A stretch of 26,547 bases of DNA, taken from positions 1 to 26,547 of IMG/VR virus record IMGVR_UViG_3300041955_000190; one strand, written 5' to 3'. Shown here one piece after another: positions 3,779 through 26,547 of this stretch; position 1 is the stretch's first letter; each line of letters opens with the position of its first letter. The stretch is from a virus. The position numbers were made by a program, and so were the translations under genes. Under the pieces are notes generated by a model that searched no databases, had not been told where the DNA came from, and saw nothing but the letters and a program-made list of their open reading frames with translations.

Positions 3779-3863
3779 GTATGGGTGGGTGAGTGGCTAA
3801 AACCAGCGGTCTGTAAAACCGCCGCCCTCAGGGGCTACGCAGGTTCGAATCCTGCCCCATGCA
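3779..3863 (+). tRNA. tRNA-Tyr(GTA)
   Basis: Class II cloverleaf. Acceptor GTATGGG / CCCATGC (one G-U), anticodon arm GCGGT-CTGTAAA-ACCGC with anticodon GTA and normal U33, a long variable arm (CCCT...GGGG) and T arm GCAGG-TTCGAAT-CCTGC. Discriminator A. The 3' CCA is not encoded, unlike most tRNAs downstream. It lies upstream of a tyrosyl-tRNA synthetase gene. Confidence 0.93.
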
Positions 3864-3880
3864 CTTCCGTGACTTTCCGA

Positions 3881-3891
3881 GTATTAAGTAG
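3881..3891 (+). promoter_or_regulatory. Candidate promoter motif GTATTAAGTAG
   Basis: Identical 11-mer to the one at 324, 17 bases before the second GIY-YIG start. The preceding bases GACTTTC are also shared with the first copy (both have GACTTTC 5-6 bases upstream). Confidence 0.4.
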
Positions 3892-3908
3892 AGTGTTCGG
3901 GAAGGTTC

Positions 3909-4547
3909 ATGATGCAATACACTGTTTATAAAACGGTGAATTCGATCAACGGCAAGTTCTACATTGGGGTTCATAAGACCGAGAACCCCGACGATGACTA
4001 CCTCGGTTCTGGGAAACTCATCAAACGAGCCGTAGCGAAATACGGGGAACAGAGCTTCCAGAAAGAAGTTCTAGCGGTCTTTGAAACCCCGAATGATGCG
4101 TTCGAACTTGAGAAGAAGCTCGTGGCGGAAGTTCTCGGTACCCCGCTGTGCTACAACCTGAAAAATGGCGGCGAGGGCGGATTCGACTGGATAAATGGGC
4201 ATGGGTTGGCTGACCACGTAAAAGCCGCAAGAGCTACACATAAAGCACATGCTCCTGACTTTTACCGACGTATCTGCTTAAAGGCAGCGGCACAAATCAG
4301 GGCGCACGGGTTTTCCCCCGCTGCACGGGAAAAGATTGTGACGACCGTCCGTAAGACTTGGACGGGAAGAAAACACAGCGAGGGTACAAAACAGAAAATG
4401 GCCGTAGCGGGAAGAAAAAGAGTGGGTTCAAATAATTCACAGTTCGGGACCTATTGGGTCACAAAAGATGGGATGAACAAAAAGGTATCCACCGTTCAAT
4501 TTCCACAATTTTTGGAACTGGGTTGGCGACGGGGGAGAAAAGTATAA
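3909..4547 (+). CDS. GIY-YIG homing endonuclease (free-standing)
   Basis: 212 residues; ATG 3909 or 3912 can start it, after GGGAAGG. The N-terminus has YTVYKTVNSINGKFYIGVHKT (GIY and YIG strands), then DDYLGSGKLIKRAVAKYG (catalytic Arg and helix), an acidic ELEKKLV segment and YNLKNGGEGG. The C-terminus has TGRKHSEGTKQKMAVAGRKR, a NUMOD3-like basic module, and NSQFGTYWVTKDGMNKKV, the typical tail of this class. It is inserted between tRNA-Tyr and a second tRNA reading GTA, so tRNA genes may be its homing targets; this is inferred. Confidence 0.92.
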   Translation: MMQYTVYKTVNSINGKFYIGVHKTENPDDDYLGSGKLIKRAVAKYGEQSFQKEVLAVFETPNDAFELEKKLVAEVLGTPLCYNLKNGGEGGFDWINGHGLADHVKAARATHKAHAPDFYRRICLKAAAQIRAHGFSPAAREKIVTTVRKTWTGRKHSEGTKQKMAVAGRKRVGSNNSQFGTYWVTKDGMNKKVSTVQFPQFLELGWRRGRKV

Positions 4548-4550
4548 AAT

Positions 4551-4646
4551 GCACGTCTGGCCGATGCGGTAAGGCAGCGGGCCGTAACCCCGTCTTCCTC
4601 CACAGTGAGGGACTCGATGTAGGTTCGATTCCTACGGCGTGCACCA
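4551..4646 (+). tRNA. Class II tRNA with anticodon loop reading GTA and C33 (Tyr-like, atypical)
   Basis: Acceptor GCACGTC / GGCGTGC pairs fully (one U-G), discriminator A, CCA encoded. D arm GCC...GGC, T arm GTAGG-TTCGATT-CCTAC, long variable arm with CCTC...GAGG. The anticodon arm GCGGG / CCCGT encloses CCGTAAC, so positions 34-36 read GTA but position 33 is C, not the nearly universal U. Isotype Tyr is therefore provisional. Only 16 bases separate its CCA from the synthetase start at 4663. Confidence 0.7.
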
Positions 4647-4662
4647 AGATTGTGAGAAGCGT

Positions 4663-5814
4663 ATGATGGTAGTGCAAACAAAACTGACGGACAGAGCGCT
4701 AGAGATCATTCGCAGTGGCACCGTAGAGATCACGCACGAAGCGGAGTTGGGGGCACTCTTGCAAGAGAACCGACCGCTGACGGTGAAATGTGGGTTTGAC
4801 CCCACCGCGCCGGACATGCACCTTGGTCATGCGGTGCTGTTGCTAAAGTTGCGGCAGTTCCAAGACCTCGGTCACAAGGTGGTTTTTCTGGTTGGAGATT
4901 TAACCGCTACGATTGGCGATCCAACAGGACGGAACGCGCAGCGTCCGCCGATTAGTCGGGTGAAGATTGCGGAGAATGCCGCCAGTTTCAAGAAACAGTG
5001 TTTCACGATTCTGGACTCGACGAAAACAGAGATCGTGTACAACTCGGAGTTGTGGAGTCCGTCAATAGAAGACTTGCTGAAGTTGATGGCTACCACGACA
5101 GTGAGCCAGATGTTGGAACGCGATGATTTCAAAAAGCGTTTTGACGCGGAACAGCCGATCCACTTGCATGAGTTGATGTACCCGCTCCTGCAAGCTATGG
5201 ACTCGGTGAAACTGACCGCTGATGTGGAATTGGGCGGCACGGATCAGAAGCTCAATTTGCTCATGGGCAGGACGCTTCAACGGCACTTTGGAAAGAAGCC
5301 GCAAGTTTGCGTCACCATGCCGATCATCAATGGTCTGGATGGTGTGAACAAGATGTCAAAGTCGCTGGGAAATCATGTCGGCTTGACCGAAGCACCATCT
5401 TCGCAGTTTGCAAAGTTGATGTCCGTGTCGGATGAAATGATGGTGCAGTTCCGACAAGCGCTGTCATTGCCTGATCCTACGGAAGAACATCCAAAGGAAC
5501 AGAAGAAGGAAATGGCACACGCGATAGTGGAGATGCTCCACGGATGCATCGAAGCGGACCGGGCATTCGTTGATTGGGAACTTCAGTTCGAGCTAAAGCA
5601 GGAACCAGAGATGGAGACTGTGACGGTTCCGCGAGATCGACTGGATAGAGTCATTGTCTCGGCTGGGTTGGCGGCATCGAACTCCGATGCGAACCGCATG
5701 ATTAAGTCTGGTGCGGTATCGGTGAACGGCGCGAAGGCAGTGGACAACAAGTTTGAGCTACCAGAATGTTTTGTACTGAAGCTGGGAAGAAACTGGAAGC
5801 GTGTTAGGTTTTAG
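4663..5814 (+). CDS. tyrS: Tyrosyl-tRNA synthetase
   Basis: 383 residues from ATG 4663, chosen because GAGAAG precedes it; an earlier in-frame ATG at 4639 lies inside the tRNA. It charges tRNA-Tyr with tyrosine in the cytoplasm. Class I signatures are present: GFDPTAPDMHLGH (HIGH box HLGH, residues 53-56), GDLTATIGDPTGR, the PLLQAMDSVKLTADVELGGTDQ tyrosine-pocket segment, and KMSKS at 230-234. The C-terminal part (from about residue 325) is an S4-type RNA-binding domain (DRVIVSAGLAASNSDANRMIKSGAVSVNG). The length is normal and all motifs are intact, so it is probably active. It most resembles the TyrZ-like bacterial subtype. It is packed between a class II tRNA reading GTA and the Leu tRNAs, consistent with co-transcription. 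Confidence 0.96.
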   Translation: MMVVQTKLTDRALEIIRSGTVEITHEAELGALLQENRPLTVKCGFDPTAPDMHLGHAVLLLKLRQFQDLGHKVVFLVGDLTATIGDPTGRNAQRPPISRVKIAENAASFKKQCFTILDSTKTEIVYNSELWSPSIEDLLKLMATTTVSQMLERDDFKKRFDAEQPIHLHELMYPLLQAMDSVKLTADVELGGTDQKLNLLMGRTLQRHFGKKPQVCVTMPIINGLDGVNKMSKSLGNHVGLTEAPSSQFAKLMSVSDEMMVQFRQALSLPDPTEEHPKEQKKEMAHAIVEMLHGCIEADRAFVDWELQFELKQEPEMETVTVPRDRLDRVIVSAGLAASNSDANRMIKSGAVSVNGAKAVDNKFELPECFVLKLGRNWKRVRF

Positions 5815-5817
5815 CTT

Positions 5818-5895
5818 GTGCAGGTGAAGGGAACTGGCATACCTTACAGGTCGAGAGCCTGTAGCTTGTGGGTTCGAAGCCCACTCTGCACACCA
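5818..5895 (+). tRNA. Atypical tRNA, loop TCGAGAG (anticodon position reads GAG, C33)
   Basis: Acceptor GTGCAGG / TCTGCAC (one G-U), T arm GTGGG-TTCGAAG-CCCAC, discriminator A and encoded CCA are all good. The D loop GAACTGGCATA is Leu-like. The anticodon arm ACAGG-TCGAGAG-CCTGT puts GAG at 34-36 with C at 33. The variable loop is only 5 nt, whereas genuine tRNA-Leu is class II. It could be a Leu tRNA that lost its variable arm, or a non-translating tRNA. Confidence 0.65.
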
Positions 5896-5900
5896 AATGT

Positions 5901-5988
5901 GTGTCCGTGGCGTAACGGCAGCCGCGCAGCGTTGAGAACGCTGTCCCTAATGACGGGGGTGGAGGTTCGATTCCTCTCGGGCACACCA
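5901..5988 (+). tRNA. tRNA-Leu(GAG)
   Basis: Acceptor GTGTCCG / CGGGCAC, anticodon arm CAGCG-TTGAGAA-CGCTG with U33 and GAG, class II variable arm (TCCC...GGGG), T loop TTCGATT, discriminator A and encoded CCA. Confidence 0.88.
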
Positions 5989-6019
5989 AATTTAAGGGTT
6001 TCAGCATTTGCTGAAGTAC

Positions 6020-6103
6020 GCGGCTGTGGTGGAATGGTATACACGTATGCTTGAGGTGCATATCCCGCAAGGGATGGAGGTTCGAGTCCTCTCAGCCGCA
6101 CCA
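6020..6103 (+). tRNA. tRNA-Leu(GAG), second copy
   Basis: Acceptor GCGGCTG / CAGCCGC perfect, anticodon arm TATGC-TTGAGGT-GCATA with U33 and GAG, class II variable arm (TCCCGCAAGGGA), T arm GGAGG-TTCGAGT-CCTCT, CCA encoded. Same anticodon as the previous tRNA but a clearly different body. Confidence 0.9.
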
Positions 6104-6105
6104 AG

Positions 6106-6249
6106 TTTTGAGAGCACGAGTGGGGGAATTGGCATACCCGGAGCGGAAACGACTCCACGTCCCCGAATTGACGGGGGCTGCGGTGCAGCGTGGCGACGGC
6201 AGTGCGGATTCGAGTTCCGCCTCTGAAAGCTGCAACACCGCTCTCAAAA
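6106..6249 (+). ncRNA. tRNA-like structured RNA closed by a 10-bp stem (about 144 nt)
   Basis: Bounded by a perfect inverted repeat TTTTGAGAGC (6106-6115) / GCTCTCAAAA (6240-6249). Inside are a Leu-type D arm (GGGG-AATTGGCATA-CCC, 6123-6139), GGAG/CTCC (6140-6143/6153-6156), CCCCG/CGGGG (6161-6165/6172-6176), GCTGC/GCAGC (6177-6181/6185-6189) and a perfect T arm GCGGA-TTCGAGT-TCCGC (6204-6220). The normal acceptor is broken (only GAG/CTC pairs next to the T arm) and no CCA follows. It occupies a tRNA-sized slot between two Leu tRNAs. It may be a decayed, enlarged tRNA-Leu or a dedicated RNA. Confidence 0.5.
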
Positions 6250-6254
6250 GTTTT

Positions 6255-6340
6255 GCCGAAGTGGTGGAATTGGCAGACACACCCGACTCAGAATCGGACG
6301 GTTAACAGCCATAGGGGTTCGACTCCCCTCCTCGGCACCA
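6255..6340 (+). tRNA. tRNA-Leu(CAG)
   Basis: Acceptor GCCGAAG / CCTCGGC with one A-C mismatch, D loop GAATTGGCAGAC, anticodon arm CCGA-CTCAGAA-TCGG with CAG, class II variable arm (GGTTAACAGCC), T arm AGGGG-TTCGACT-CCCCT, CCA encoded. Confidence 0.88.
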
Positions 6341-6356
6341 ATATTTGCTAGAAAGG

Positions 6357-6431
6357 CTATATTTACTGTTCAGTGAACATTGCTTAAACGGTAAATATAG
6401 ACCGATTACAACGGTTTACGGGTTTAATCGG
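6357..6431 (+). repeat. Two adjacent hairpins (AT-rich inverted repeats)
   Basis: CTATATTTACTGTT (6357-6370) pairs with AACGGTAAATATAG (6387-6400), 14 positions with a single G-U; the loop contains the smaller GTTC/GAAC dyad. Directly after it CCGATTA (6402-6408) pairs with TAATCGG (6425-6431). The 103-bp gap between two Leu tRNAs is filled by these two stems. It may be a processing signal, an operator or a small RNA. Confidence 0.55.
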
Positions 6432-6443
6432 CACAAAGATTAT

Positions 6444-6529
6444 GCGGTTATGGCGGAATGGCAGACGCGCTAGGCTCAAACCCTAGTGGGGGCAACCCCG
6501 TGGAGGTTCGACTCCTCTTAGCCGCACCA
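6444..6529 (+). tRNA. tRNA-Leu(CAA)
   Basis: Acceptor GCGGTTA / TAGCCGC, anticodon arm CTAGG-CTCAAAC-CCTAG with CAA, class II variable arm (GGGGGCAACCCC), T arm GGAGG-TTCGACT-CCTCT, CCA encoded. Confidence 0.92.
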
Positions 6530-6534
6530 AGTTT

Positions 6535-6618
6535 GCACGAGTGGCGTAACGGCAGCCGCGCTCGCCTTAGGAGCGAGTCCCGAAAGGGGTGGAGGTTCGA
6601 TTCCTCTCTCGTGCACCA
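6535..6618 (+). tRNA. tRNA-Leu(TAG)
   Basis: Acceptor GCACGAG / CTCGTGC perfect, anticodon arm CTCGC-CTTAGGA-GCGAG with TAG, class II variable arm (TCCCGAAAGGGG), T arm GGAGG-TTCGATT-CCTCT, CCA encoded. Its acceptor 5' strand GCACGAG recurs in the aberrant RNA at 6106-6249, suggesting common origin. Confidence 0.92.
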
Positions 6619-12545: not shown

Positions 12546-13184
12546 CTAATTCAGCAAGAACTCCCGAGTAGTTGCCTCCCAATCCCGACTGCCCATTTCC
12601 GTTAGGAAGTCATCGCACGCCTCACCGCCGTCCTGTGCCAAGGCGGGGTGCAGACGGTTGACGGCCTCTTCGACCCACAACCGTGCCATGCAGCCATCAA
12701 ACAGGTTGCGGAGGCAGGTCTTCTGGTCGGGCGAGTCCACGGTCATGAGCCAGCCGTCATAGGCGCTCTTGCGAGCGGCCTCGGGGTCACGGATGGCGTC
12801 GGGGTTAACATCGGTCACAATGCCCTCAATCGGTGAGATCAGATCAACGGTGCGCCCGTCACGGGTGATCGTGGCAAATCGCTGCCCCTGCCGTACCCAC
12901 GTGTTACGCTGCGGCAACGTGATCGAATCGATCTTGCCGATCATCTTGGATGCGAAGTCGTCCATGCCTACACGCACGAGCGAGGGGGATTCCTTGAGAG
13001 CCCACGTGTGGGCGGGGTGGTAGAGGAGATTCGTCGGCACACTAAAGCCGCGAACGAGCGCGGGCGTGAGTGGCACTTGCGGCACCCGATAAGCTGCGGC
13101 GGGAACGGGGACCTTGCCGCGACTCTTGAAGTAATCGATCAGCAGGAAGAGAATGAACGTGAGCAGAACCAGAATGACTGTCAT
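12546..13184 (-). CDS. Membrane-anchored GcvH-like (lipoyl-fold) protein without the lipoyl lysine
   Basis: 212 residues from the ATG at 13184, chosen because GGAGG lies 6 bases upstream; longer in-frame starts lack this. Residues 1-18 are one hydrophobic membrane segment. From residue 55 a glycine-cleavage H-protein fold follows: YHPAHTWALKE, VRVGMDDFASKMIGKIDSITLP, ISPIEGIVTDVN, and DGWLMTVDSP. At the site of the lipoylated lysine the sequence is RDGRTVDLISP, so that lysine is absent (Gly110/Arg111) and it cannot act as a normal lipoyl carrier. The tail LAQDGGEAC...DWEATTREFLLN matches bacterial membrane GcvH-like proteins. It is the only reverse-strand gene here, between tRNAs and the replication genes, which marks it as a host-derived moron. 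Role in infection unknown. Confidence 0.82.
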   Translation of the reverse strand: MTVILVLLTFILFLLIDYFKSRGKVPVPAAAYRVPQVPLTPALVRGFSVPTNLLYHPAHTWALKESPSLVRVGMDDFASKMIGKIDSITLPQRNTWVRQGQRFATITRDGRTVDLISPIEGIVTDVNPDAIRDPEAARKSAYDGWLMTVDSPDQKTCLRNLFDGCMARLWVEEAVNRLHPALAQDGGEACDDFLTEMGSRDWEATTREFLLN

Positions 13185-13446
13185 GATAACCTCCACCATT
13201 GCTATAGCAATTAAACAGCCAAACTCTAAGTCTTTATTTGTCAGTGTTTTACCAATCTCGTCCCCGCTCGGCTGTTGCGATATGCAACGGCTAAAACTCG
13301 ATCTCGAAGATAACCTCAATGTTTTGTGCACTTTTTCAGCGTTGCGAAACACAACTGTCACTGTTGCGTTTTTAAGTGGTGCTAATCCAACCCTTTATTT
13401 TCGCTGACTATTCCCCAAAATCGGGTATTAGATACCTGAGGGCAGT
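13185..13446. promoter_or_regulatory. Divergent intergenic region
   Basis: AT-richer 262-bp gap between the reverse GcvH-like gene and the replication operon. It contains GTTGC-GATAT-GCAAC (13274-13288) and two further GTTGCG copies (near 13341 and 13363), possible operator repeats. A candidate rightward promoter motif lies at 13425. I see no clear sigma70 box for the reverse gene. Confidence 0.4.
13425..13434 (+). promoter_or_regulatory. Candidate promoter motif GTATTAGATA
   Basis: Part of AAATCGGGTATTAGA, shared exactly with the copy at 1046-1060; 12 bases before GTG 13447. Confidence 0.4.
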
Positions 13447-14130
13447 GTGTCAGATAAATACACCCAAGCACCCGACGTTCAGGATGTAGACTTCCAAAAA
13501 CGTACAGCGGACAAACTCTATCGGGCGGGAGCCATACGTGGTATCAACCCCCGGCGGATTGAGCGCATCCGCGAAGAGGTTCGGTTCGATGATGTGGTCG
13601 CCCACTTTGTCCGTAACGTGGGAGATAAAATCAGTTGCCCCTTCCACGGCACCGATTCCACGCCATCTTTTCAGGTCTATCGCGGGTCCAACGATGGCTT
13701 CTGTTTTGGTTGCCCCGCAGGTAAAGGCTACTACGATCACATCCGTTTCGTGAAAGAATCCCTCGGGTGCACGTGGGTGCAGGCCCTCAAGTGGATCGAG
13801 AAGCAGTTCGAACTTCCCGCACTCCCCGATGTTCTCATCGAGCAAGACGAAGACGAAGAGATCACAACAGAGGTCACTTTTACCGATCTGTCGGAACCAT
13901 TTCTCGTTCGCGCTGTTAAAGACATTCGAACATCGAAGGACTACGAGTTGGCCGTGGAGTACATCCACGTCTATTTTGGCGCTCTCGATTTCGAGAAGGG
14001 TGCAGACGAGGCAAAGAAAGCCCGCGAGCCCGAAGAAGCAACAAAGCTACATTTCAAAGCCGCAATGCGTCTGGCGAGAGTATTAGGACAAGAGGCGGTA
14101 AATCGAATTTTGGACGACAAGGAACTCTAA
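13447..14130 (+). CDS. CHC2 zinc-finger protein, primase zinc-domain type (227 aa)
   Basis: GTG start after TGAGGG. Residues 40-105 match the DnaG-type primase zinc-binding domain: EVRFDDVVAHFVRNVGDKISCPFHGTDSTPSFQVY...CFGCPAGKGYYDHIRFV, with C64, H67, C86 and C89. This domain reads template DNA at primer initiation. The remainder (acidic, then helical) has no TOPRIM polymerase motifs, so the catalytic part is absent or encoded elsewhere. It ends in a TAATG overlap with the next gene and heads a replication operon that includes DNA polymerase. Confidence 0.85.
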   Translation: MSDKYTQAPDVQDVDFQKRTADKLYRAGAIRGINPRRIERIREEVRFDDVVAHFVRNVGDKISCPFHGTDSTPSFQVYRGSNDGFCFGCPAGKGYYDHIRFVKESLGCTWVQALKWIEKQFELPALPDVLIEQDEDEEITTEVTFTDLSEPFLVRAVKDIRTSKDYELAVEYIHVYFGALDFEKGADEAKKAREPEEATKLHFKAAMRLARVLGQEAVNRILDDKEL

Positions 14131-14396
14131 TGCTAAAACCACGCTGCATCTACTGCGGTAAGATTTTCGCCGACAAAGAAAAGTACGACACCATCACCAA
14201 GCCCGTAGCGGCTACAGGTGCCAACGGTGGGACGAAGATCATCCAGAAGCCCGTTGGATTCAACTGCATCAAGCGGTGTTTCAAAGGTCAAGCGAGAGCG
14301 ATGTTCGAGCTATACGCCGACGTTGAACTGAAGGACGGCAAGCTGGTCGAAGTCAAGCGTCCCGGCAATGGCGGGCTAACGCTAAGGAAGTTCTAA
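14130..14396 (+). CDS. Small zinc-binding protein (88 aa)
   Basis: Starts in a TAATG overlap and ends in another with the polymerase gene. C6-x2-C9 and C46-x3-C50 can hold a zinc ion. The rest is basic and Gly-rich. Tight coupling between the primase-like gene and DNA polymerase suggests a replication accessory role, by position only. Confidence 0.7.
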   Translation: MLKPRCIYCGKIFADKEKYDTITKPVAATGANGGTKIIQKPVGFNCIKRCFKGQARAMFELYADVELKDGKLVEVKRPGNGGLTLRKF

Positions 14397-17300
14397 TGGC
14401 AAAGATTCAACAGGACACGGGCGAGGTCAAGCTTAAGCGGACCAAGAAGGTCAAGAAACCTAAGCCGCCGTCCGATCTCCGCTCCATGTATCGGGCTCGT
14501 CTTCGCGAGATAGACATCGAGAAGATCAAGAAGCCGTGGATGGCTGAGAAAGCCTTCAAGTTGTTGGATACGGAAGAGGCTCTCCAAGCGTGGGCAGACA
14601 ACCTGCTCGCGGACCAATCCCGTCACTGTACATACGGCAAAGAAACGAGTCCCGCTCTCGCGGTGGACACCGAAGGCAATGGTCTGGATACCCGCATCTT
14701 GATCGACATGCAGGAGCAACCAGACGGCTCGTATGAATTGACCTACGAGGTCAAAGTTGAGATTGCTGGCGTCTGCTTGAGTGCAGATGGTGTCGAGGGC
14801 ATCTACATTCCGATCAACCACGAGAGGGGCAGAAACGTCCCCCGTGAAGCCGCACGCCGTATCCTTCAGCACCTCTTTGATCGCTGCCATCTGATTTTCT
14901 ACAACGCGAAATTCGACCGCGAAGTCATACGTCTGTGTCTGGGCATCAACCTGCGCGGCTACCCGCACTTCGAAGACGTGCAATCCCTCGCGTACATCAA
15001 TGACCCCAAGGCCGATCTGGGCGACAAGAAGCAGAAATACACGGGCTCCGCTGGTGGTTTGAAGGCGTTGTCCAAGACTGTGTTGGGCATCGAGCAGATC
15101 GAGATTGAAGAAATCTCCGTGGTCAAAGCGACAGTATGTCCGCTGACCAAGAAGCCTCTCTGCAATTGCTCGGAAGAAGAGATCAAAGCCCTATCCCAGA
15201 AGGAATTAAAGCACGGCAAGAAGAACGTGTACGCTCCGTTCACGTGGGTTCCCACGAATGTCGCCCTCTGGTACGCCGCCGGTGATGCTATCTGCACGTG
15301 GCTTCTGTGGCAGAAGATGAAAGACTTGGCTCGCAGCCGCCGCCTGCCACACCGCATCGATCACGAGTTGGTGGACAGCATCATTTTCGTAGAGCGCCAA
15401 CGATTCCAGATCGATACCGAGCGTCACGGTCGCACCGCCAAGTGGCATCAAGGGCTGTTGGATAGCCTGTACAACAAGCTCCGTGATCTGGCTCTCGAAG
15501 CTGGGTTTAAGGAACCCGCTGACGAAGAGGGCAAGGTCAACGACGATGATAAGTTCAACCCGGGAAGCGGGCCGCAGTTGCAGAAACTCCTGTACGGAGT
15601 CAAGGGCTACAAGTGTGAGCATTACACGAAGAAGGCGGGGAACCCATCTTGTGACAGCGATGCCATTGATGACCTGCTTAAAGATCACCCTGACGATGAG
15701 TTCCTCAAGACTCTTGTGGAATTCAAGAAATATGGAGCCCTACACCCCGCCAACCTGCGGTATGACCCGAAGGACAACTCCGCTCGTATTCACCTGCGCC
15801 AGAGCACGGTAGCGGGCGGTCGTCTGTCCGCTTCAGGCGGCGACTTCGAGGAAGATGGCGGATTCGGCATGAACCCGCAGGGCGTCAAGAAGGTCGAGCC
15901 CGAAAAGCAGTGGCGTGTGCATGGTAACGTTCTCTCGCCCGACTCAATTCCAGTGGACGAGATTGAAGAGTACACCGAAAACGACCTGCACCCGTCTTGT
16001 TTCCGCCTTGAGAAGGGCGTCATCAAGAAGGCCAAAGGCATCATCAAGAACCACATCGGACAGTACACGGGTTACGCGATCTGCCTCGTCCCGAAGTGTA
16101 CGTCTTGTGCGGAGAAACACGGTATCCTCATCAAAGACACGCAGATGGATGCCAACGAAGTCGTCAACCTGCGTGTGCTGATGTGTTCGCCTCGTGGCTG
16201 GACGTGGTTCTCCGTTGACTATTCGAACATCGAAATGCGTGCCGCCGCCAACATGAGCGGTGAGCCAAAATTCATTGACGAATTCCTTAAGGGTAAGGGC
16301 GACTTCCACACCCTAACTGCGTCCAACGTCTTCCCAGAGTTCAACGACCCGAATACTTCAGCCGACAAAAAGAAGGGCTTCCGCGATATCGCTAAGATCA
16401 TCAACTTCGCCCTCCTGTATGGCGGCACTGAGCACGCCATCTACCTCAACATGAAGGAAAAGGACCCCAGTATCACCAAGGAAGACTGCAAGAAGATGGT
16501 CGATAAATACTGGGAAGGTGTGCCTAAGTTTGCCGAGTTCGTGCAGATGAAACAGACGAAGGCGAAGACTGAGATGATTTGCGAAACCTCCACGGGTCGT
16601 GTCATCAACTTCAACTCGGCGTTGGAAGCTCTCCACCTGCACAAGCCGTTTGATGAAGAGCGTCAGAACCTTTACGAATACTACGCAAACAACCGCGAAG
16701 CCGAGACTGCGAAGCGGGCTGGAAATGACGTGGAGTACCAGAAGTACAAGGGCCGCGCAGACCGTCTGTGGAAAGACCCGGATTCTGGCGTTCGCAACGC
16801 GATGGAATACAACAAGTTCATCGGCAAGGTCCAGCGTATCGCTGTCAACGCCCCAATTCAGGGTATTTGCGGCGACTTCATGCGTATCGCCTTGAACCGC
16901 CTCCGTAAGTGGGTAGAGGCTGATCCATTGATCCAGTCAGTGTTCCGCCTACATACGTCGGTGCACGACGAAGTTGACTTCTCGGTGAAGAACGAGTACA
17001 TCCCGTTCATCCTGCCGCGTGTCACCCGCCTCATGAAGCTCCGCAAGTACCACGAGCAGATGAAGTGGCCCGTACCGATTGAGTGCGATGCGGAATACGG
17101 CCATAGCTGGGACGTTGACTGGAATGCTACGGACCCGAAGAAGGCCGTTGCATGGACGCACGTTGAGGGCATGGAGAAATACCTGCCTGACGCATTCGAT
17201 TCGAAGTCGGTCAAGGCTATGCTGCACTCGCTGACATCTGGCGATCCGATCAAGGTCGGAAAAGTAAAGGCTTGGATGATCGAGAACCTGCACCCACGCG

Positions 17301-18034
17301 CTATTGGCCGGGTGCATGACACGGATGTATACGAAACGATTAACGCTCTGGATAAGGCGAAGGACCCCAAGGAAACTCAGCGTGTCCTGATTGCCATCCT
17401 CCAGTTGCATGAATACTGGACGCTCGATCACGTGCCTGATGGACAGGATGCCACGATGGAGACGTTGGAGCAGTACGAGCAGCGTGTTGGCCTCACCGCA
17501 AAGGATCGCGGCATGATGCCATCGTTCGGCTATTCAGGTGCGATTCCGTTGGATGCCAAAGTTATTCGTCCGACGCTGCTCATCCTCGGTGAAGAAGTTC
17601 AAGCCGAGCTTCCGAATATTGTCGTGTCGGAGAACGAGATTACGGCTACGGTTCCAGCGGCTAAAGAGTCCGAGGTAGTTCTGAGTGCAGAAACTCAAGC
17701 GACGATGACCGAGGTTTGTCATCGGATGAATCAGGAAACCTTGCGTGAGATGGAAGCTGATCGAGCAGCCAAAGAAAAGATCGTGGCGGGACAGATTGCT
17801 CGTGCTTCCGAAGAATTGCCGAAGATTTTGGCAGAGTTGCATGGAACGGAGCCCGTCTACGAATTGATCGATGAGATTCGAACGGACGACGAACTCAAGC
17901 ACAAGCTCAAGGAAGCCCTTGGCAGGGGACCGAACACCATCAAAATCAAGATCGGCGACAGGATCATGGAAATCACGGGGAAGAAGCTCGACCACGTGCC
18001 CGAAGAATTTCTCAAGCAGGTGACCCTTGCGTAA
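14396..18034 (+). CDS. DNA polymerase, family A, with 3'-5' exonuclease (1212 aa)
   Basis: Copies the phage genome. The exonuclease domain has AVDTEGNG (D91, E93), FYNAKFDREV (Exo II) and YAAGDAICTW (Exo III). The polymerase domain has motif A FSVDYSNIEMR (D608), motif B RDIAKIINFALLYGG (K667) and motif C HTSVHDEVDF (H857-D858-E859). It is longer than usual phage Pol A enzymes: there is a roughly 70-residue insertion between motifs B and C (LHKPFDEERQN...AGNDVEYQKY) and a C-terminal extension of about 300 residues after the catalytic core with no recognised motif. A Cys cluster (CPLTKKPLCNC) lies near residue 247. All catalytic residues look intact. Confidence 0.96.
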   Translation: MAKIQQDTGEVKLKRTKKVKKPKPPSDLRSMYRARLREIDIEKIKKPWMAEKAFKLLDTEEALQAWADNLLADQSRHCTYGKETSPALAVDTEGNGLDTRILIDMQEQPDGSYELTYEVKVEIAGVCLSADGVEGIYIPINHERGRNVPREAARRILQHLFDRCHLIFYNAKFDREVIRLCLGINLRGYPHFEDVQSLAYINDPKADLGDKKQKYTGSAGGLKALSKTVLGIEQIEIEEISVVKATVCPLTKKPLCNCSEEEIKALSQKELKHGKKNVYAPFTWVPTNVALWYAAGDAICTWLLWQKMKDLARSRRLPHRIDHELVDSIIFVERQRFQIDTERHGRTAKWHQGLLDSLYNKLRDLALEAGFKEPADEEGKVNDDDKFNPGSGPQLQKLLYGVKGYKCEHYTKKAGNPSCDSDAIDDLLKDHPDDEFLKTLVEFKKYGALHPANLRYDPKDNSARIHLRQSTVAGGRLSASGGDFEEDGGFGMNPQGVKKVEPEKQWRVHGNVLSPDSIPVDEIEEYTENDLHPSCFRLEKGVIKKAKGIIKNHIGQYTGYAICLVPKCTSCAEKHGILIKDTQMDANEVVNLRVLMCSPRGWTWFSVDYSNIEMRAAANMSGEPKFIDEFLKGKGDFHTLTASNVFPEFNDPNTSADKKKGFRDIAKIINFALLYGGTEHAIYLNMKEKDPSITKEDCKKMVDKYWEGVPKFAEFVQMKQTKAKTEMICETSTGRVINFNSALEALHLHKPFDEERQNLYEYYANNREAETAKRAGNDVEYQKYKGRADRLWKDPDSGVRNAMEYNKFIGKVQRIAVNAPIQGICGDFMRIALNRLRKWVEADPLIQSVFRLHTSVHDEVDFSVKNEYIPFILPRVTRLMKLRKYHEQMKWPVPIECDAEYGHSWDVDWNATDPKKAVAWTHVEGMEKYLPDAFDSKSVKAMLHSLTSGDPIKVGKVKAWMIENLHPRAIGRVHDTDVYETINALDKAKDPKETQRVLIAILQLHEYWTLDHVPDGQDATMETLEQYEQRVGLTAKDRGMMPSFGYSGAIPLDAKVIRPTLLILGEEVQAELPNIVVSENEITATVPAAKESEVVLSAETQATMTEVCHRMNQETLREMEADRAAKEKIVAGQIARASEELPKILAELHGTEPVYELIDEIRTDDELKHKLKEALGRGPNTIKIKIGDRIMEITGKKLDHVPEEFLKQVTLA

Positions 18035-19394: not shown

Positions 19395-22034
19395 ATGGCA
19401 AATAAGACAGCAGACGACGGTCAAGGAAAGCGCGTTACTACCCGCCAACGGGGAGCCAACACACGTATTTCCCCGTCCATCGTGAAACGGAAGATCGCCA
19501 AGGTAGGCGGCAAGGAATTCGCATCGGCTGGCAAATACACGCAGGTGAACTCCAAGGGTGAGATCGTCGAAGATTCGGCGATGAACAAGCTCCGCATTAT
19601 CCAAGGCGCGGCCCGCAGCGGCACCGTAAGCACCAACCCCAACTCTGGCTGGGGCATGTACGAGGCAGCTAAGACGGCTGCTGGTCTTTTCAGTGACGGC
19701 GGCTTAGGCGCTGCCGATATTCAAGATTCAAACAACATCGGTTACTACAGCTACGAGTTCCCAGTTGACGCCCTTGAGCTTCCCGCCTCTCGTGCGGAAG
19801 AACTCCGTTTCTATCGTCTGGCATACGACCGCGACCCAATCGTTGGTCGCGCAATCGACATGCACACGGAACTGCCTGTCAGCAAGATGACGGCAGAGAA
19901 GCCGAAGTGCTCGTCCGAAGAGTACGCCGATTACGTGTACGACGATTTCCAGCGGTTTATGAACCGCACCCGTCTGTTCCAAGTCATCATCGATGCGGCC
20001 CGTGAATACTGGTGCATTGGTGAGACCTTCCTGTTCATCGAAGACCCCGAAGACATCGAGCCCTGCAAAGCGGCCAAGAAACTTCTTGAGAAGGACGGCA
20101 AGGGCGGCGGCGGGGGTAAGGCTGGCGACGGCGTTGAACCCCGAGATTCAACTTTCCATCCGCCAGAGGGCGGCACGGGAGATCGTATTCTCGAATACCT
20201 CCAGCCCGAGAAACGCTCTTCGTGGATCAACAAACGCGCTTCGGTATTTGATGAACTCAAGGCTGCGGGTATCGACTTTGATTTCGGTGCCGATAGCATC
20301 ATCAAGGACCTCGCTAAGGTCTCGGCTAAGATCGAGGCTACTCGCAAGGACCTCAACAAAGGCGCTCGTAAGTTTGCCAAGGTCATAGGCATTGCTCCGA
20401 AGAAACTCGCCAAGATGATTATGGCCTCAGAGACCAACGACAAGCTGTCGAAGCTTATCCGTAACGAAAAGGGTGACGACATTTACCCACTCCAAGTTCT
20501 GGCCGAAATGTCCAAGGTTGCTCAACCACCCGCTGGCGGTGCCCCCGCTGCTCCTCCTGCGGACGCTCCTGCTGGTGATGCTGGTGCTGGTACGCCCCCG
20601 GGCGCGGATGCTCCTGCGGGCGATCCCGCTGCTGGTGATCCAGCGGCAGGCGGCGAGGGTGCCCCATTAGGTGAGGGTGGTCTCGGCGATGTTGAGGGTA
20701 TGGGCGGCGGTGCTCCGATGGGTGGAGGCGGTGGTGGGGGTGGTCCGATCACTCCTGCGGATGCGGCTCCGGGCGTCAAAGACGCTATCGCTATGGGCGC
20801 TACGATTTCAGCCCAGCGCGAATTGATGGAGATGAAGCACCTCCTCAAGTTGCTTGAAAAGAAGAAAGAACTGCTCGAAGAACTGAAGGAAATCCGCGAG
20901 AAGAAGCGCGAAGAACTGGAACTCTTCGGCCACATCGAGAACAAGGATTACGAAGGGCCTGATCGCATTCAGATTCTTCCACCTGAACAGATCGAGATCA
21001 CCAACGAAGGTACGATGGTGGATGGTCCGACGATCTACTACAAACCACCCGAGGCTCAGAAGCAAGCCTACATGGACGATCCAGAGGTTCCAAATCAGGT
21101 GAAGGACGTGATCCAGACGGAAGGCAAGATTCCGCTGAACAACGATCCGTTCCAAGGTTCCTACGTCATTCACTTCGCCCGCAAGAAGAGCGGCTACGAA
21201 TTGCATGGTCGCTCGATCCTGCAACGTTGCATCCGCACAGTCATCTACCGTGAGAAGCTCCGTCAGGTGCAGAGCACGTTGGCGTCCCGCAACATGACGC
21301 CGAAGCGTTTGATTGTGGCTCCAGACATTCCAGCGTCCGAAGTCATCGCTTTGCGTGCACACATCGACGAAGCTATCGCCGATCCAGATTATTCTGTGGT
21401 CGTGAACTACGAGTGCCGTTGGGACGAAATTGGTTCCGAAGGCCGTTTGCTCTCGCTTGACGCTGAGTGGCAGCACACGAACTCCGACTTGGCAATTGGT
21501 CTGGGTCTGTCGCCTGAAATCCTCATCGGTGAGGGCATGTACTCAGGCAACCGCATCCAGTTGGAAATCATGAACGTGTCGTACCTCCAGTTCCGCGACC
21601 TTCTGACCTATGTCATCGAACAAGAAATTTTCCGGCCCTACGCCATGAAGAAGGGCTATTACGAGATGGACAAATACGGGCGTCCCCGTTGGATATATCC
21701 GAAGATCACGTTCAGTCGCATGGCACTGCGCGACTCCGGCGACCTTTACGACATGTTGTTTAATCTTTATTCAAAAGGCAGCCTGCCGGTTGACATCATC
21801 TACGAATTCTTGAACCTCGATCCTGAGGATTGCGAGCGCAAGCTGGAAGACGCGCTCTTCACGGTTAAGGACAGCAAGTTCAACGAGATGTTGAGCAACA
21901 TCTACAACTCGGTTGGCGACTGGCTGATGACCAACACCGACTTGGGTAAGCGCATCACGAAGGGTCTCGACCTGAACGAAGTCGAAGCTGAGGGTGAGGA
22001 CGAAGGTCCTGAAGGTTCTGGCGAGGGAATGTAA
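19395..22034 (+). CDS. Portal protein (879 aa) with a disordered Pro/Ala/Gly insert
   Basis: Forms the dodecameric ring at the capsid vertex through which DNA passes. Portal-like features: YSYEFPVDALELPASRAEELRFYRLAYDRDPIVGRAIDMHTELPVSKM, an entry domain with REYWCIGETFLFIEDPED, and the C-terminal core YVIHFARKKSGYELHGRSILQRCIRTVIYREKLRQVQ...SYLQFRDLLTYVIEQEIFRPYA. Residues about 376-460 are a low-complexity Pro/Ala/Gly/Asp run (PPAGGAPAAPPADAPAGD..., GGGGGGGG), followed by a strong coiled coil (KHLLKLLEKKKELLEELKEIREKKREEL). This insert is unusual for a portal, whose typical length is 500-600. Assignment rests on overall layout and context. Confidence 0.75.
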   Translation: MANKTADDGQGKRVTTRQRGANTRISPSIVKRKIAKVGGKEFASAGKYTQVNSKGEIVEDSAMNKLRIIQGAARSGTVSTNPNSGWGMYEAAKTAAGLFSDGGLGAADIQDSNNIGYYSYEFPVDALELPASRAEELRFYRLAYDRDPIVGRAIDMHTELPVSKMTAEKPKCSSEEYADYVYDDFQRFMNRTRLFQVIIDAAREYWCIGETFLFIEDPEDIEPCKAAKKLLEKDGKGGGGGKAGDGVEPRDSTFHPPEGGTGDRILEYLQPEKRSSWINKRASVFDELKAAGIDFDFGADSIIKDLAKVSAKIEATRKDLNKGARKFAKVIGIAPKKLAKMIMASETNDKLSKLIRNEKGDDIYPLQVLAEMSKVAQPPAGGAPAAPPADAPAGDAGAGTPPGADAPAGDPAAGDPAAGGEGAPLGEGGLGDVEGMGGGAPMGGGGGGGGPITPADAAPGVKDAIAMGATISAQRELMEMKHLLKLLEKKKELLEELKEIREKKREELELFGHIENKDYEGPDRIQILPPEQIEITNEGTMVDGPTIYYKPPEAQKQAYMDDPEVPNQVKDVIQTEGKIPLNNDPFQGSYVIHFARKKSGYELHGRSILQRCIRTVIYREKLRQVQSTLASRNMTPKRLIVAPDIPASEVIALRAHIDEAIADPDYSVVVNYECRWDEIGSEGRLLSLDAEWQHTNSDLAIGLGLSPEILIGEGMYSGNRIQLEIMNVSYLQFRDLLTYVIEQEIFRPYAMKKGYYEMDKYGRPRWIYPKITFSRMALRDSGDLYDMLFNLYSKGSLPVDIIYEFLNLDPEDCERKLEDALFTVKDSKFNEMLSNIYNSVGDWLMTNTDLGKRITKGLDLNEVEAEGEDEGPEGSGEGM

Positions 22035-22467: not shown

Positions 22468-22947
22468 ATGATGGATTCTGTACCTCTCGAAAATTGCACC
22501 CACGAACCGAAAATCGCTAGGGGCTTGTGCCGTCCGTGCTACTACACGAACTGGCGACGAGGGTTTCTTCCGCCCATCCAACGTACCCCCCAAAGTTCCG
22601 AAGAACACCGTCAGCAAATGCGGGATTGGAAGGCTAAAAATCTCACCCCCGCACGGCGAAAGGGTTATGTCTTGATGGAGCTTTACGAGATTACCCTCGC
22701 TGACTTCGAACGTATGAAAGCGGCACAGGCGGGGGCGTGCGCTCTTTGCGGGCAAGTCCCACCACCGTCCAAGGATGGGAAAGAGGTTCTGTTTGTCGAT
22801 CATGACCATGAAACGGGGCAAGTGCGGGCTCTTCTGTGTCGTAGATGCAACCTCGCGGTCGGCTGGGTGGAGAAGTGCGATATCGCCAAAATTCAAACCT
22901 ATTTGGAATCCTTTAAGCAGAGGTCACTGGCGGCGGTGAACGAATAA
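22468..22947 (+). CDS. Endonuclease VII-like (HNH/His-Me finger) nuclease
   Basis: 159 residues. The C-terminal core has C91-x2-C94, then VDHDHETGQVRALLC (D111, H112, D113, H114), C124-x2-C127 followed by N128: the zinc-bound His-Me finger of recombination endonuclease VII. An N-terminal module with C10, C21 and C24 (HEPKIARGLCRPCYYTNWRRG) probably adds a second zinc site for DNA binding. In T4 the enzyme resolves branched DNA before packaging, while many phage copies are free-standing mobile nucleases. The position between portal and tail-type genes and its own promoter motif fit a homing insertion. Confidence 0.9.
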   Translation: MMDSVPLENCTHEPKIARGLCRPCYYTNWRRGFLPPIQRTPQSSEEHRQQMRDWKAKNLTPARRKGYVLMELYEITLADFERMKAAQAGACALCGQVPPPSKDGKEVLFVDHDHETGQVRALLCRRCNLAVGWVEKCDIAKIQTYLESFKQRSLAAVNE

Positions 22948-25900
22948 TGCTTACCACACTCGACACACAGTCTTGGGCAAAAGAATTAGTAACTGGAAAT
23001 GCCCAATTTATTGAGGTTTCCGCAGGCAGTCCGCCCGCTCTGACGATCTATGTCGTCTCGAACGTCAGGGCGGACAACAGCTTCGCCATCCTCCATTCCA
23101 TCCCCCCACCGCCCGCAGGCTTCGCCCCGGGCCCCGGCTCCAATTTCCTCACGGTAGCCACGTACACATTCCCGCGTCCAAACAGTGGCTTCGATCCCGT
23201 CACGGCTTACGATCCGAGTACAGGGTTGCTGCACATCATCGGGACGCAGAACAACGCCATCAATTCCCGTTATTCGGACCTGATTAAGTTCACTTTCAAC
23301 ACGAACACCCAGACCCTTTCAGGACCACACATCCTGACGACCGCTTCGGCGGTACGCGATGGGTATGACATGGTGATACTCGCTAACGGGCACCGTTTCA
23401 TCGCCGTATCGGTTCTGGACGCTACGATGGTGGGTGCCGAAGTTCCACCCCTATTCCAAGCCCCAATCACGTTTGTGGGAATCACGACCACGGGCACGCC
23501 CGCCGAGACCACGCTGACGATCACGGCAAGCAACACGTTCTCGGAAGGCCAATTGGCTACCCTGACGGGGTTGACCAACGCAACATTTCTCAATGGTCTG
23601 ACGGTACAGGTTTTGAGTGCCGACCCGACTCAGTTCACTGCGGCGTTCACCACCGATTCCCCCGACTATTCCGCCGCCGATACAGGTCTGGCGACTCCGT
23701 ACTATTCTGGTGAAAACCTGCTCGCGTTTGAACTGGACACCAGCGACAACTACGTCTCGGGCTCACTCCACATCGTCGCATCGTCGCCTGATCGTTCGGG
23801 CGATACGTTCAGTGCCGTGAGCTTGGTCACCCCCGATGGGCTGAGCATCGAGCTTTACTACGGGGCACACCCGAAGGTTTACAACTTCAAAGATCAGTTG
23901 TTTACGATCAATCTCATCAACCGCACCACGACACTCAGCCCTCCTGTCTCGGGTGTTTGGGACGCTGCGCCTACCAATCTCTTTACGTTCACATCTCGTT
24001 ACGCCGACGACAGTCTGACCGTTATACCCGACTTGTTCGGCAACCGCTACCTTAGCTGGTCATTCTGGACACAGAGCAACCACCCCGAAGGCATCATCGG
24101 AAACGTGATGCTCGGGACCCTGCAAGTGGGGAATCCATGGCTCTTTAACCCCATCTACGGCACCTCGGTCAACGGTTCGATTGTTCAAGCAACCCTATCG
24201 GTCACGCAGTTCGGTATCGTGAGCTTGGCATACTTGCTGGAGCCATTCAATCTAGTGACTCCAATCCCAGCAATGGGAACCTTTCCCGTTTATCCGCTTC
24301 ACGTGGCGACCGTTACTCCGACGCTGAACACCATAAACACCACAGGATGGTACGACCAGCAGGTCTTCACATGGCTACGCGGGACGAATGTCCCTATCGA
24401 TGATGCGTCCACATGGGCGTTTGTGGGTGAGGCATCGAAGATCATCTCGGTTACCAACGAAGCACAGACGATCCCCGCCTCGGGAGTAGTTCAGGTAACG
24501 CATTTTGACGATACCCCATTTTCCAACTTCTGGGAAAACGTGGGGGTCATCTACTCACAGACTGGCGTGCCGCTGGTTGAGGTCGCTACAGCCCCCGCTA
24601 AGGGGCAGTATCAAGTTGAGCCGACCAACGGGCGGTACATATTCAATCTGGCGGATGTTGGTCAGGGTGTTCAGATCAGCTACAGCTACGTGGGTATCAT
24701 TACCCCCGTGTACGTCTCGTTGTTCAATGTTCCGCCCATCGTTGGATTGGTGCCGCCTCTGCCTTTGTGCGGCCCGCCGATGATCGTATATCGCGACACA
24801 GGATCGCCGCTTGGTCAGCCCCTCACGCTCAGTGCGGCGGGAACTTTTGATGCAGACCAAGATACCATCGAATATTGGTGGTCGGATAACGACATCACTG
24901 GGTTTGTGACGTTAAATCCCAGCGGGCTTTGGACCTTCAGCGACACCTCCGTTCTATCGGTTAGTCCCCAGATCGGCGGGGCAGAGGCAACTTTCAACGT
25001 AGGCGTTGCGGCGGTAGACCTTTATCCCGATCTCGTCACGCAACGTCACCCGCCTCTTAACATATCGGCGTATCAGGTATTGCTTGGCACCCTACAGGTG
25101 CCGCAGATGGTCGAGTTTACGGTGAGCAACACCCCTGTTGGCAACCCGCCTACCGACATTCCAACCCTGCCGTTAGCGATAGGCGAAGAGGTCATGACTT
25201 GGGATATCACGAGTTGCAGCCCGCCGACGCCCATTCAATCCCTGAACGATCAAGTGTGGTACGTGGTTGCATCGACATCCACGACTTTCACCGCAGTACC
25301 ACTCTGCGGCATGTCGGGTAGTCCTCCTTCGCCCCCACCACCGTCGCCTCCGCTCTCTCCCGTTACTACGGAATTGGCTTCGGCGGCAAATTACGCCGTG
25401 CTCGCTTACAGTGGGATCACGAATACGGGCAATACCGTTATTACGGGCGGGGACATCGGCTCTTCACCAACTCCCGCCATCACGGGATTCCCTCCCGGGA
25501 TTGTGGTTCCTCCAGCTATTGTTGACAACGCCGACGCTGGCGCTGCTCGAATTGACGCCCAGATCGCGTACAACTATTACTCGACGTTGCCATCGGGCAC
25601 GATCATCAGTAGTGTGAGCAATCAGACGTTCACCCCGGGCACGTACACCGCATTGAGCACCCTGCTCTTCACGGGCGGTACGGTGACTCTGAACGGTGCT
25701 GGGGTTTACATTTTCCAAGTTGGTTCCGCGTTGAATGTTACCACGGGTCCGACGACGTTTGTTCTCACTAACGGTGCAACAGCCGATAATGTGATCTTTG
25801 TAGTGGGCAGTGCGGCTTCCTTCGATGCCAACCAAGCCACGGGTAGTTTCGTGGGAACCATCATCGCTCAGGCGGGGGTTTCGTTCGTTGGCGGTACGCT

Positions 25901-26547
25901 CACAGGCAGAGCGATCTCCACGACGGCGAATGTCACCTTTGCCGCAGCCGAGATCATCAACGTGCCCGCGAGCGCCCAGCCCCCAAGTCCTGCCATTGAT
26001 TTGTGCAGCGGGTATGCGATCCCGCAGTTCCAGTTCTCCGTGATTACGGTGGTGGTGCCGTTCAATGAACCTCCGACGATCACGTTCCCCTTCCCCGTAT
26101 GGGAGGACATCGGCTCACCGCCCGTGCCGAACACTCTTGCAATCCCCGCTTCGGTCGCTCGGAATACTCAGATCACGATCACACCGTTCGCGATTACTGA
26201 TCCCTCGACTCAATTCCCCGTGGAATACGGCGGCATTAGCGACCCCGATGATGTCGTCACCTATACGTGGTCACAGGTATCAGGCACCCCCGTTGTCATT
26301 GTCGGTGCTTCTAATTTGCCGACGTTCACGTTCGATACGAACGGTGTGGCGATACAGGGAGAAAGCCTCGTATTCCAGCTTACGTTGTGCGATGGTGTCA
26401 ACCCCTGCACCACATCCGAATTCACGATCCCAGTTGCGGGGTACGCTTACGCGCAGGGTACAGACGATCTCCAGTTGTCACGGTCGGTTTACTCGGGTAA
26501 CATTTCTCTACGTAACCAATTGGGAACGTGGGGGCCTGTCGATATAA
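22947..26547 (+). CDS. Giant beta-rich virion-type protein with embedded DUF3494 ice-binding domain (partial, at least 1200 aa)
   Basis: Opens with a TAATG overlap on the nuclease stop and reads without a stop to the right edge. Composition (Thr, Ser, Val, Pro, Gly, few Lys) and strand-turn pattern point to a string of Ig/beta-sandwich domains, as in tail fibre, baseplate or capsid decoration proteins. Residues about 600-725 (LSAAGTFDADQDTIEYWWSDND...) and 1060-1170 (YGGISDPDDVVTYTWSQVSGTPVVIVG) look PKD/cadherin-like. After a Pro/Ser linker (residues 793-805) comes a complete DUF3494 ice-binding domain (about 810-1006): ANYAVLAYSGITNTG, GDIGSSP, GFPPG, FTPGTY, YIFQVGSALNV, NVIFVVGSAASF, and FVGTIIAQAGVSFVGGTLTGRA. 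No signal peptide is seen, which suits delivery in the virion. Confidence 0.85.
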   Translation, partial: MLTTLDTQSWAKELVTGNAQFIEVSAGSPPALTIYVVSNVRADNSFAILHSIPPPPAGFAPGPGSNFLTVATYTFPRPNSGFDPVTAYDPSTGLLHIIGTQNNAINSRYSDLIKFTFNTNTQTLSGPHILTTASAVRDGYDMVILANGHRFIAVSVLDATMVGAEVPPLFQAPITFVGITTTGTPAETTLTITASNTFSEGQLATLTGLTNATFLNGLTVQVLSADPTQFTAAFTTDSPDYSAADTGLATPYYSGENLLAFELDTSDNYVSGSLHIVASSPDRSGDTFSAVSLVTPDGLSIELYYGAHPKVYNFKDQLFTINLINRTTTLSPPVSGVWDAAPTNLFTFTSRYADDSLTVIPDLFGNRYLSWSFWTQSNHPEGIIGNVMLGTLQVGNPWLFNPIYGTSVNGSIVQATLSVTQFGIVSLAYLLEPFNLVTPIPAMGTFPVYPLHVATVTPTLNTINTTGWYDQQVFTWLRGTNVPIDDASTWAFVGEASKIISVTNEAQTIPASGVVQVTHFDDTPFSNFWENVGVIYSQTGVPLVEVATAPAKGQYQVEPTNGRYIFNLADVGQGVQISYSYVGIITPVYVSLFNVPPIVGLVPPLPLCGPPMIVYRDTGSPLGQPLTLSAAGTFDADQDTIEYWWSDNDITGFVTLNPSGLWTFSDTSVLSVSPQIGGAEATFNVGVAAVDLYPDLVTQRHPPLNISAYQVLLGTLQVPQMVEFTVSNTPVGNPPTDIPTLPLAIGEEVMTWDITSCSPPTPIQSLNDQVWYVVASTSTTFTAVPLCGMSGSPPSPPPPSPPLSPVTTELASAANYAVLAYSGITNTGNTVITGGDIGSSPTPAITGFPPGIVVPPAIVDNADAGAARIDAQIAYNYYSTLPSGTIISSVSNQTFTPGTYTALSTLLFTGGTVTLNGAGVYIFQVGSALNVTTGPTTFVLTNGATADNVIFVVGSAASFDANQATGSFVGTIIAQAGVSFVGGTLTGRAISTTANVTFAAAEIINVPASAQPPSPAIDLCSGYAIPQFQFSVITVVVPFNEPPTITFPFPVWEDIGSPPVPNTLAIPASVARNTQITITPFAITDPSTQFPVEYGGISDPDDVVTYTWSQVSGTPVVIVGASNLPTFTFDTNGVAIQGESLVFQLTLCDGVNPCTTSEFTIPVAGYAYAQGTDDLQLSRSVYSGNISLRNQLGTWGPVDI

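Follow-up and report, generated by a model that had tools for sequence, protein, structure and literature searches.

A DUF3494 (ice-binding-type) domain in a probable tail protein of a Tunturi_5-like phage: a candidate exchangeable virion module

The window, that is, the whole 26,547-base stretch of DNA analysed here, is a fragment held as a virus record, and a long protein encoded after its portal gene contains a domain of the DUF3494 or Ice_binding family (PF11999). We give roughly even chances to the interpretation that this domain is a virion-displayed, exchangeable surface-binding module on a probable tail protein, its ligand probably being ice. In such a mechanism an intact DUF3494 β-solenoid would sit on the virion surface by way of a tail-associated protein and serve as a surface-binding pad, the flat B-face with its small and Ser/Thr residues would bind ice, and the virions would adhere to ice in freezing soil alongside their hosts, suffer less freeze-thaw damage, or both.

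The sequence-only reading had placed a DUF3494 domain at positions 25374-25970 (+ strand; amino acids 810-1008 of the protein, hereafter the carrier), and both the profile search and the structure prediction bore this out. Carrier residues 818-1003 match PF11999 with an E-value of 2.1e-31 and 109.7 bits (curated cut-off, 28.7 bits) over positions 1-207 of the 208 in the profile, and a six-frame search locates the match at nucleotides 25398-25955, within the above interval; six-frame searches of 14 control genomes gave no PF11999 match. The closest solved relatives by sequence are EfcIBP (6eio, E 1e-24), AnpIBP (7bwx) and SfIBP_1 (6bg8). An AlphaFold2 model of the domain, built on 61 aligned domains, has a mean pLDDT of 94.7 and a pTM of 0.92, and predicts a discontinuous β-solenoid with a flanking α-helix (55-70), as in the DUF3494 family. 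All 31 chains that Foldseek matched to it at E<=1e-3 are DUF3494 proteins, the top matches in the PDB being ice-binding ones. Furthermore, VIA-align superposed it on 7bwx (Z 29.7) and 6eio (Z 29.5) with an rmsd of 1.2-1.3 Å over about 190 residues; Z was 26-30 against 25 solved DUF3494 chains and 13 for the nearest unrelated chain. A chance PF11999 match was rejected on these grounds (E 2e-31, fold Z about 29.5). Profile, fold and a rotated-profile test described below agree that the window domain is in native order, not permuted.

AnpIBP binds ice with its B-face, where the substitution S153Y or T156Y cut the activity to 17% (PMC7277481). Alignment assigns S146 and S149 of the window domain to the columns of AnpIBP S153 and T156, and among 49 phage domains Ser or Thr occupies the S146 column in 96% and the S149 column in 98%; the ladder columns of T16, T188 and S170 hold Ser or Thr in 90-96% of the same set. 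In addition, the outward B-face residues are 79% Gly, Ala, Ser or Thr as against 50% in the whole domain, and variation is lower in the B-face columns than in the remaining non-hydrophobic ones (p 0.02). Judged by its sequence, the window domain appears to have the B-face residue type of functional DUF3494 ice-binding proteins, including both hydroxyl positions. The main rival to ice is a host surface: the solenoid would recognise capsule, LPS, exopolysaccharide or a crystalline polysaccharide on which the hosts grow (cellulose, chitin), and would be swapped like receptor-binding modules. We regard this as unlikely, though it deserves serious weight. It does not sit well with canonical B-face residues being kept in 90-98% of the phage copies, including the baseplate ones, and not diversified, nor with the occurrence of the domain in the tail sheath, which is normally no receptor-binding protein.

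The surroundings of the domain point to a phage. The portal protein (phrog_16240; 19395-22034, +) shows 47.8% full-length identity to gp7 of Tunturi_5, a jumbo myovirus with a 309-kb genome that infects Tunturiibacter psychrotolerans (Acidobacteriota) and comes from Arctic tundra soil in Finland (PMC11924767). In the window the genes for primase, DNA polymerase, a 268-aa protein, portal and carrier succeed one another as in Tunturi_5 gp4-gp8. The other anchors of this synteny, both recognised by profile matches, are a DnaG-type zinc-ribbon primase protein (13447-14130, +; gp4) and a DNA polymerase A (14396-18034, +; gp5). Nearer relatives, with portals 75-92% identical, occur on contigs of up to 224-456 kb. 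From portal homology and the gene order of a 26.5-kb fragment, the source phage would be a Tunturi_5-like jumbo myovirus. The virus record and the Tunturi_5-like gene order thus uphold the phage origin supposed at first, and a bacterial contig with a host adhesin was rejected, this being a viral record with a portal, a family A DNA polymerase, a primase and homing nucleases. Other features of the window are 13 tRNA genes (ARAGORN), including a cluster with duplicates at 3779-6618 (two Tyr and six Leu, three of the latter with the anticodon GAG), a phage tyrosyl-tRNA synthetase within that cluster (4639-5814), two further homing endonucleases (346-1041 and 3909-4547) and a 271-aa ORF (12546-13361, -) which matches the glycine cleavage H-protein, a lipoyl carrier (E 2e-16), and is unusual for a phage.

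A cold-soil host is plausible, because Tunturi_5 infects Tunturiibacter of the Finnish tundra and the cellular domains nearest to the window domain are acidobacterial. DUF3494 was found neither in the complete genome of Tunturi_5 nor in the 455-kb and 463-kb relatives, so the domain is regarded as an exchangeable accessory module and not as the mark of every cold phage.

The carrier (22947-26546, +) lies downstream of the portal, as had been noted, with an endonuclease VII-type nuclease gene (22468-22947, +; profile matches) in between, the end of which (22947) overlaps the carrier start. It is 1200 aa long up to the point where the ORF exits the contig, is open at its 3′ end, and has homologs that extend further. 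A K319L-like PKD domain occupies amino acids 1083-1162 (26193-26432, +; profile match), and on the N-terminal side of DUF3494 the PKD-chain profiles match weakly. No PHROG of known function matched the carrier, and gp15 of Bacillus phage G, encoded after its portal, is unrelated to it. Its homolog in Tunturi_5, gp8, has the same place after the portal and is annotated as a "minor tail protein". This annotation favours the earlier description as a virion-type protein; virion membership itself we infer from gene position and the annotation of the homolog, and the carrier is probably tail-associated. An AlphaFold2 model of the carrier, from six sequences, reached a pLDDT of 44, and in this low-confidence model the N-terminus gave weak Foldseek matches in the PDB to β-propellers (E>=1.7e-3); these are glycan-active ones, including phage endosialidases, and would suit attachment to the host.

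Carrier orthologs were found in L102, L010, L103, L012 and L014, and the portal is followed by the ortholog in the latter four (in L014 about 4.5 kb separates the two). The L102 ortholog has DUF3494 at the identical position between flanks 71-92% identical to the window carrier; an assembly chimera was rejected because this independent contig has the same carrier with the domain at the same place. In L010 and L103 a different module is at this site, and the L012 and Tunturi_5 homologs are without the DUF3494 stretch.

Beyond this carrier, DUF3494 is present in at least 40 viral contigs (a single alignment-based scan of IMG/VR gave 44 loci), and a check of 35 further records gave one or more PF11999 matches in 34 of them. 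The relatives G010 (IMGVR_UViG_3300038465_000091, portal 92% identical to the window portal), G006 and G001 have six, four and two matches, respectively; those of G010, a 223-kb relative, lie in several long fibre-like proteins (L051-L054). Among the domain-bearing proteins, L008 matches a tail sheath family (phrog_279), L083 a baseplate wedge family (phrog_6) and L051 a tail fibre family (phrog_2631). With DUF3494 masked, these proteins fall into families that include ones of 14, 12 and 7 members, and the genes next to them have matches to families of the baseplate, head decoration, major tail and major head proteins. A hydrophobic N-terminus is absent from most phage carriers and present in most bacterial ones. 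Moreover, comparison with Myxococcus phage Mx1 gave a collinear baseplate J-like protein to which DUF3494 domains are added, and a sheath alignable only C-terminal to the DUF3494 domain. The search of other phage structural genes, recommended with the first reading, has thus extended the domain well beyond one phage, and a virion module is supported because these carriers match sheath, baseplate and fibre families and mostly have no hydrophobic N-terminus. In isolated phages, tblastn with two domain copies against 50,697 phage records gave no match. L095, on a 137-kb contig, is a DUF3494 protein of 306 aa whose tail is basic and RS-rich; it is very divergent from the phage copies, and its contig may be from a virus of eukaryotes.

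These carriers also bear on host cryoprotection, the interpretation given to PF11999 genes in marine viruses of the Central Arctic (PMC11515562), by which the domain would belong to an ice-binding protein that infected cells produce against freezing of the host. A stand-alone secreted form with a signal peptide would be expected of such a gene, and the carrier does not fit: its N-terminus is MLTTLDTQSWAKELVTGNAQF, with no hydrophobic stretch visible, and the domain is embedded in a multidomain protein of 1200+ aa right after the portal. Since its relatives are moreover located in sheath, baseplate and fibre proteins, host cryoprotection is very improbable here.

In the sheath proteins the C-terminal part of the profile is met first, with the N-terminal part coming immediately after it. 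When the profile was rotated at domain residue 50 and scored against the native one, each of the 14 sheath proteins tested (L008, L056, L089, L093, L096, L098, L100 and L113-L119) gave a single full-length rotated match above its best native match, for example 239 vs 197 bits in L089 and 224 vs 166 in L118, whereas the window domain favours the native order (204 vs 148+49 bits). By this comparison of profiles, the sheath DUF3494 is circularly permuted. In the known fold the first strand coil lies beside the last, the order being β1-β6-β5-β4-β3-β2 (PMC7277481), and because the first coil packs against the last, the permuted domain would form a regular solenoid. Permuted copies were also observed in L086 (baseplate-type), L088, L101 and one copy of L003. 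Fibre and baseplate copies would mostly have the native order, and the sheath copies appear to be natural circular permutants.

The kinship of the domains does not follow that of their carriers. The window domain shares 83% identity with a G001 domain that lies in an unrelated, fibre-like protein, and by blastn the DNA similarity of the two is limited to the domain and its SPVTTEL lead-in; the Pro/Ser-rich linker immediately 5′ of the domain (25314-25361, +; from sequence and blastn extent) and the SPVTTEL next to it are common to both proteins. To the domain of the L102 ortholog it is 45% identical (41% over the stretch equivalent to residues 831-1006), and the L102 domain is 85% identical to domains of two other proteins in G010. 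Both pairings, window/G001 and L102/G010, have tree support of 99-100%. DUF3494 is therefore an exchangeable module, because domain kinship crosses unrelated proteins while the ortholog flanks stay 71-92% identical. Such exchange among fibre-type carriers whose flanks stay conserved, the presence of as many as six copies in one phage and the alternative modules at the same carrier site in L010 and L103 are all in keeping with attachment to the host, and rapid swapping, being also expected of a host-receptor module, counts against ice.

The dN/dS ratios are 0.13 for window/G001, 0.07 and 0.05 for L102/G010 and 0.07 for the portal; the domain is under purifying selection. This weighs on the view that DUF3494 is a structural spacer or decoration, a stable β-rich filler without a specific ligand like many Ig-like domains. 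A spacer would agree with the sites of insertion, which tolerate additions and lie between PKD-like modules or in the loops of a baseplate protein that is collinear apart from them, and with the absence of the domain or its replacement by another module in relatives, but the low dN/dS and the conservation of surface Thr/Ser ladders, not of core residues only, render a spacer rather improbable. As to origin, the sampled bacterial copies, which are few (12) and were chosen by similarity to the window domain, all fall on one side of a branch (12/12, 96%), and the phage carriers are intermixed by class. The phage copies thus seem to form their own lineage, separate from these 12 bacterial ones. 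A recent transfer from a host gene is unsupported, the nearest cellular copies being 42-45% identical and the 12 bacterial rows one clade (96%).

Ice as the ligand is supported by the PF11999 match, the fold Z of 29.5-29.7, the kept B-face Ser/Thr and the low dN/dS; against it stands, besides the swapping, Tunturi_5, which comes from tundra soil and has no DUF3494. A wider proposal, held more tentatively than that for the window domain, is that a wide range of soil phages have ice-active virions and that DUF3494 is a shared, recombining decoration of contractile-tail phages, permuted on the sheath, where it is probably present once per sheath subunit, hence in many copies per particle. If this were true, some virus particles would bear antifreeze-type proteins on their tails, which would alter the view of how phages survive, spread and meet their hosts in permafrost, peat and snow, and the partition of virions into ice would be a direct laboratory test. 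It would also correct the habit of labelling PF11999 matches in viruses as auxiliary genes for the host, regardless of the surrounding protein. In addition, DUF3494 has in the phage copies a large branch that has apparently been overlooked, and the natural circular permutants are informative on the assembly of the fold.

PF11999 in viruses is already known; as a virion domain no report was found in the open literature searched, and in the same scope nothing was found joining DUF3494 with phage or ice-binding with the tail sheath. One "antifreeze protein" has been reported from Southern Ocean viruses (PMC8407431). In the Central Arctic vOTUs (Microbiome 2024, PMC11515562) PF11999 is in viral contigs as here, but here tail-type proteins hold the domain; that study names Synechococcus phage S-SKS1, in which PF11999 found no match at E<=0.001. 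In BFVD the DUF3494 matches at E<=0.001 are three, all Hyperionvirus proteins; they too are DUF3494 in a virus, but a giant virus of eukaryotes, and are 261-623 aa long. Tunturi_5 gp8 (PP885688) is homologous to the window carrier and has the same place after the portal, but is without DUF3494. The DUF3494 proteins EfcIBP (6eio), AnpIBP (7bwx), FfIBP (4nu2) and SfIBP_1 (6bg8) resemble the window domain in profile, fold (Z 27-30) and B-face residue type; the solved structures, however, are of cellular proteins, whereas the window domain sits within a probable phage tail protein. Structural proteins of tailed phages bear optional, exchangeable Ig-like and PKD accessory domains. DUF3494 is optional and exchangeable like these, but unlike them it is a large β-solenoid with an ice-binding-type face, and is circularly permuted in the sheath.
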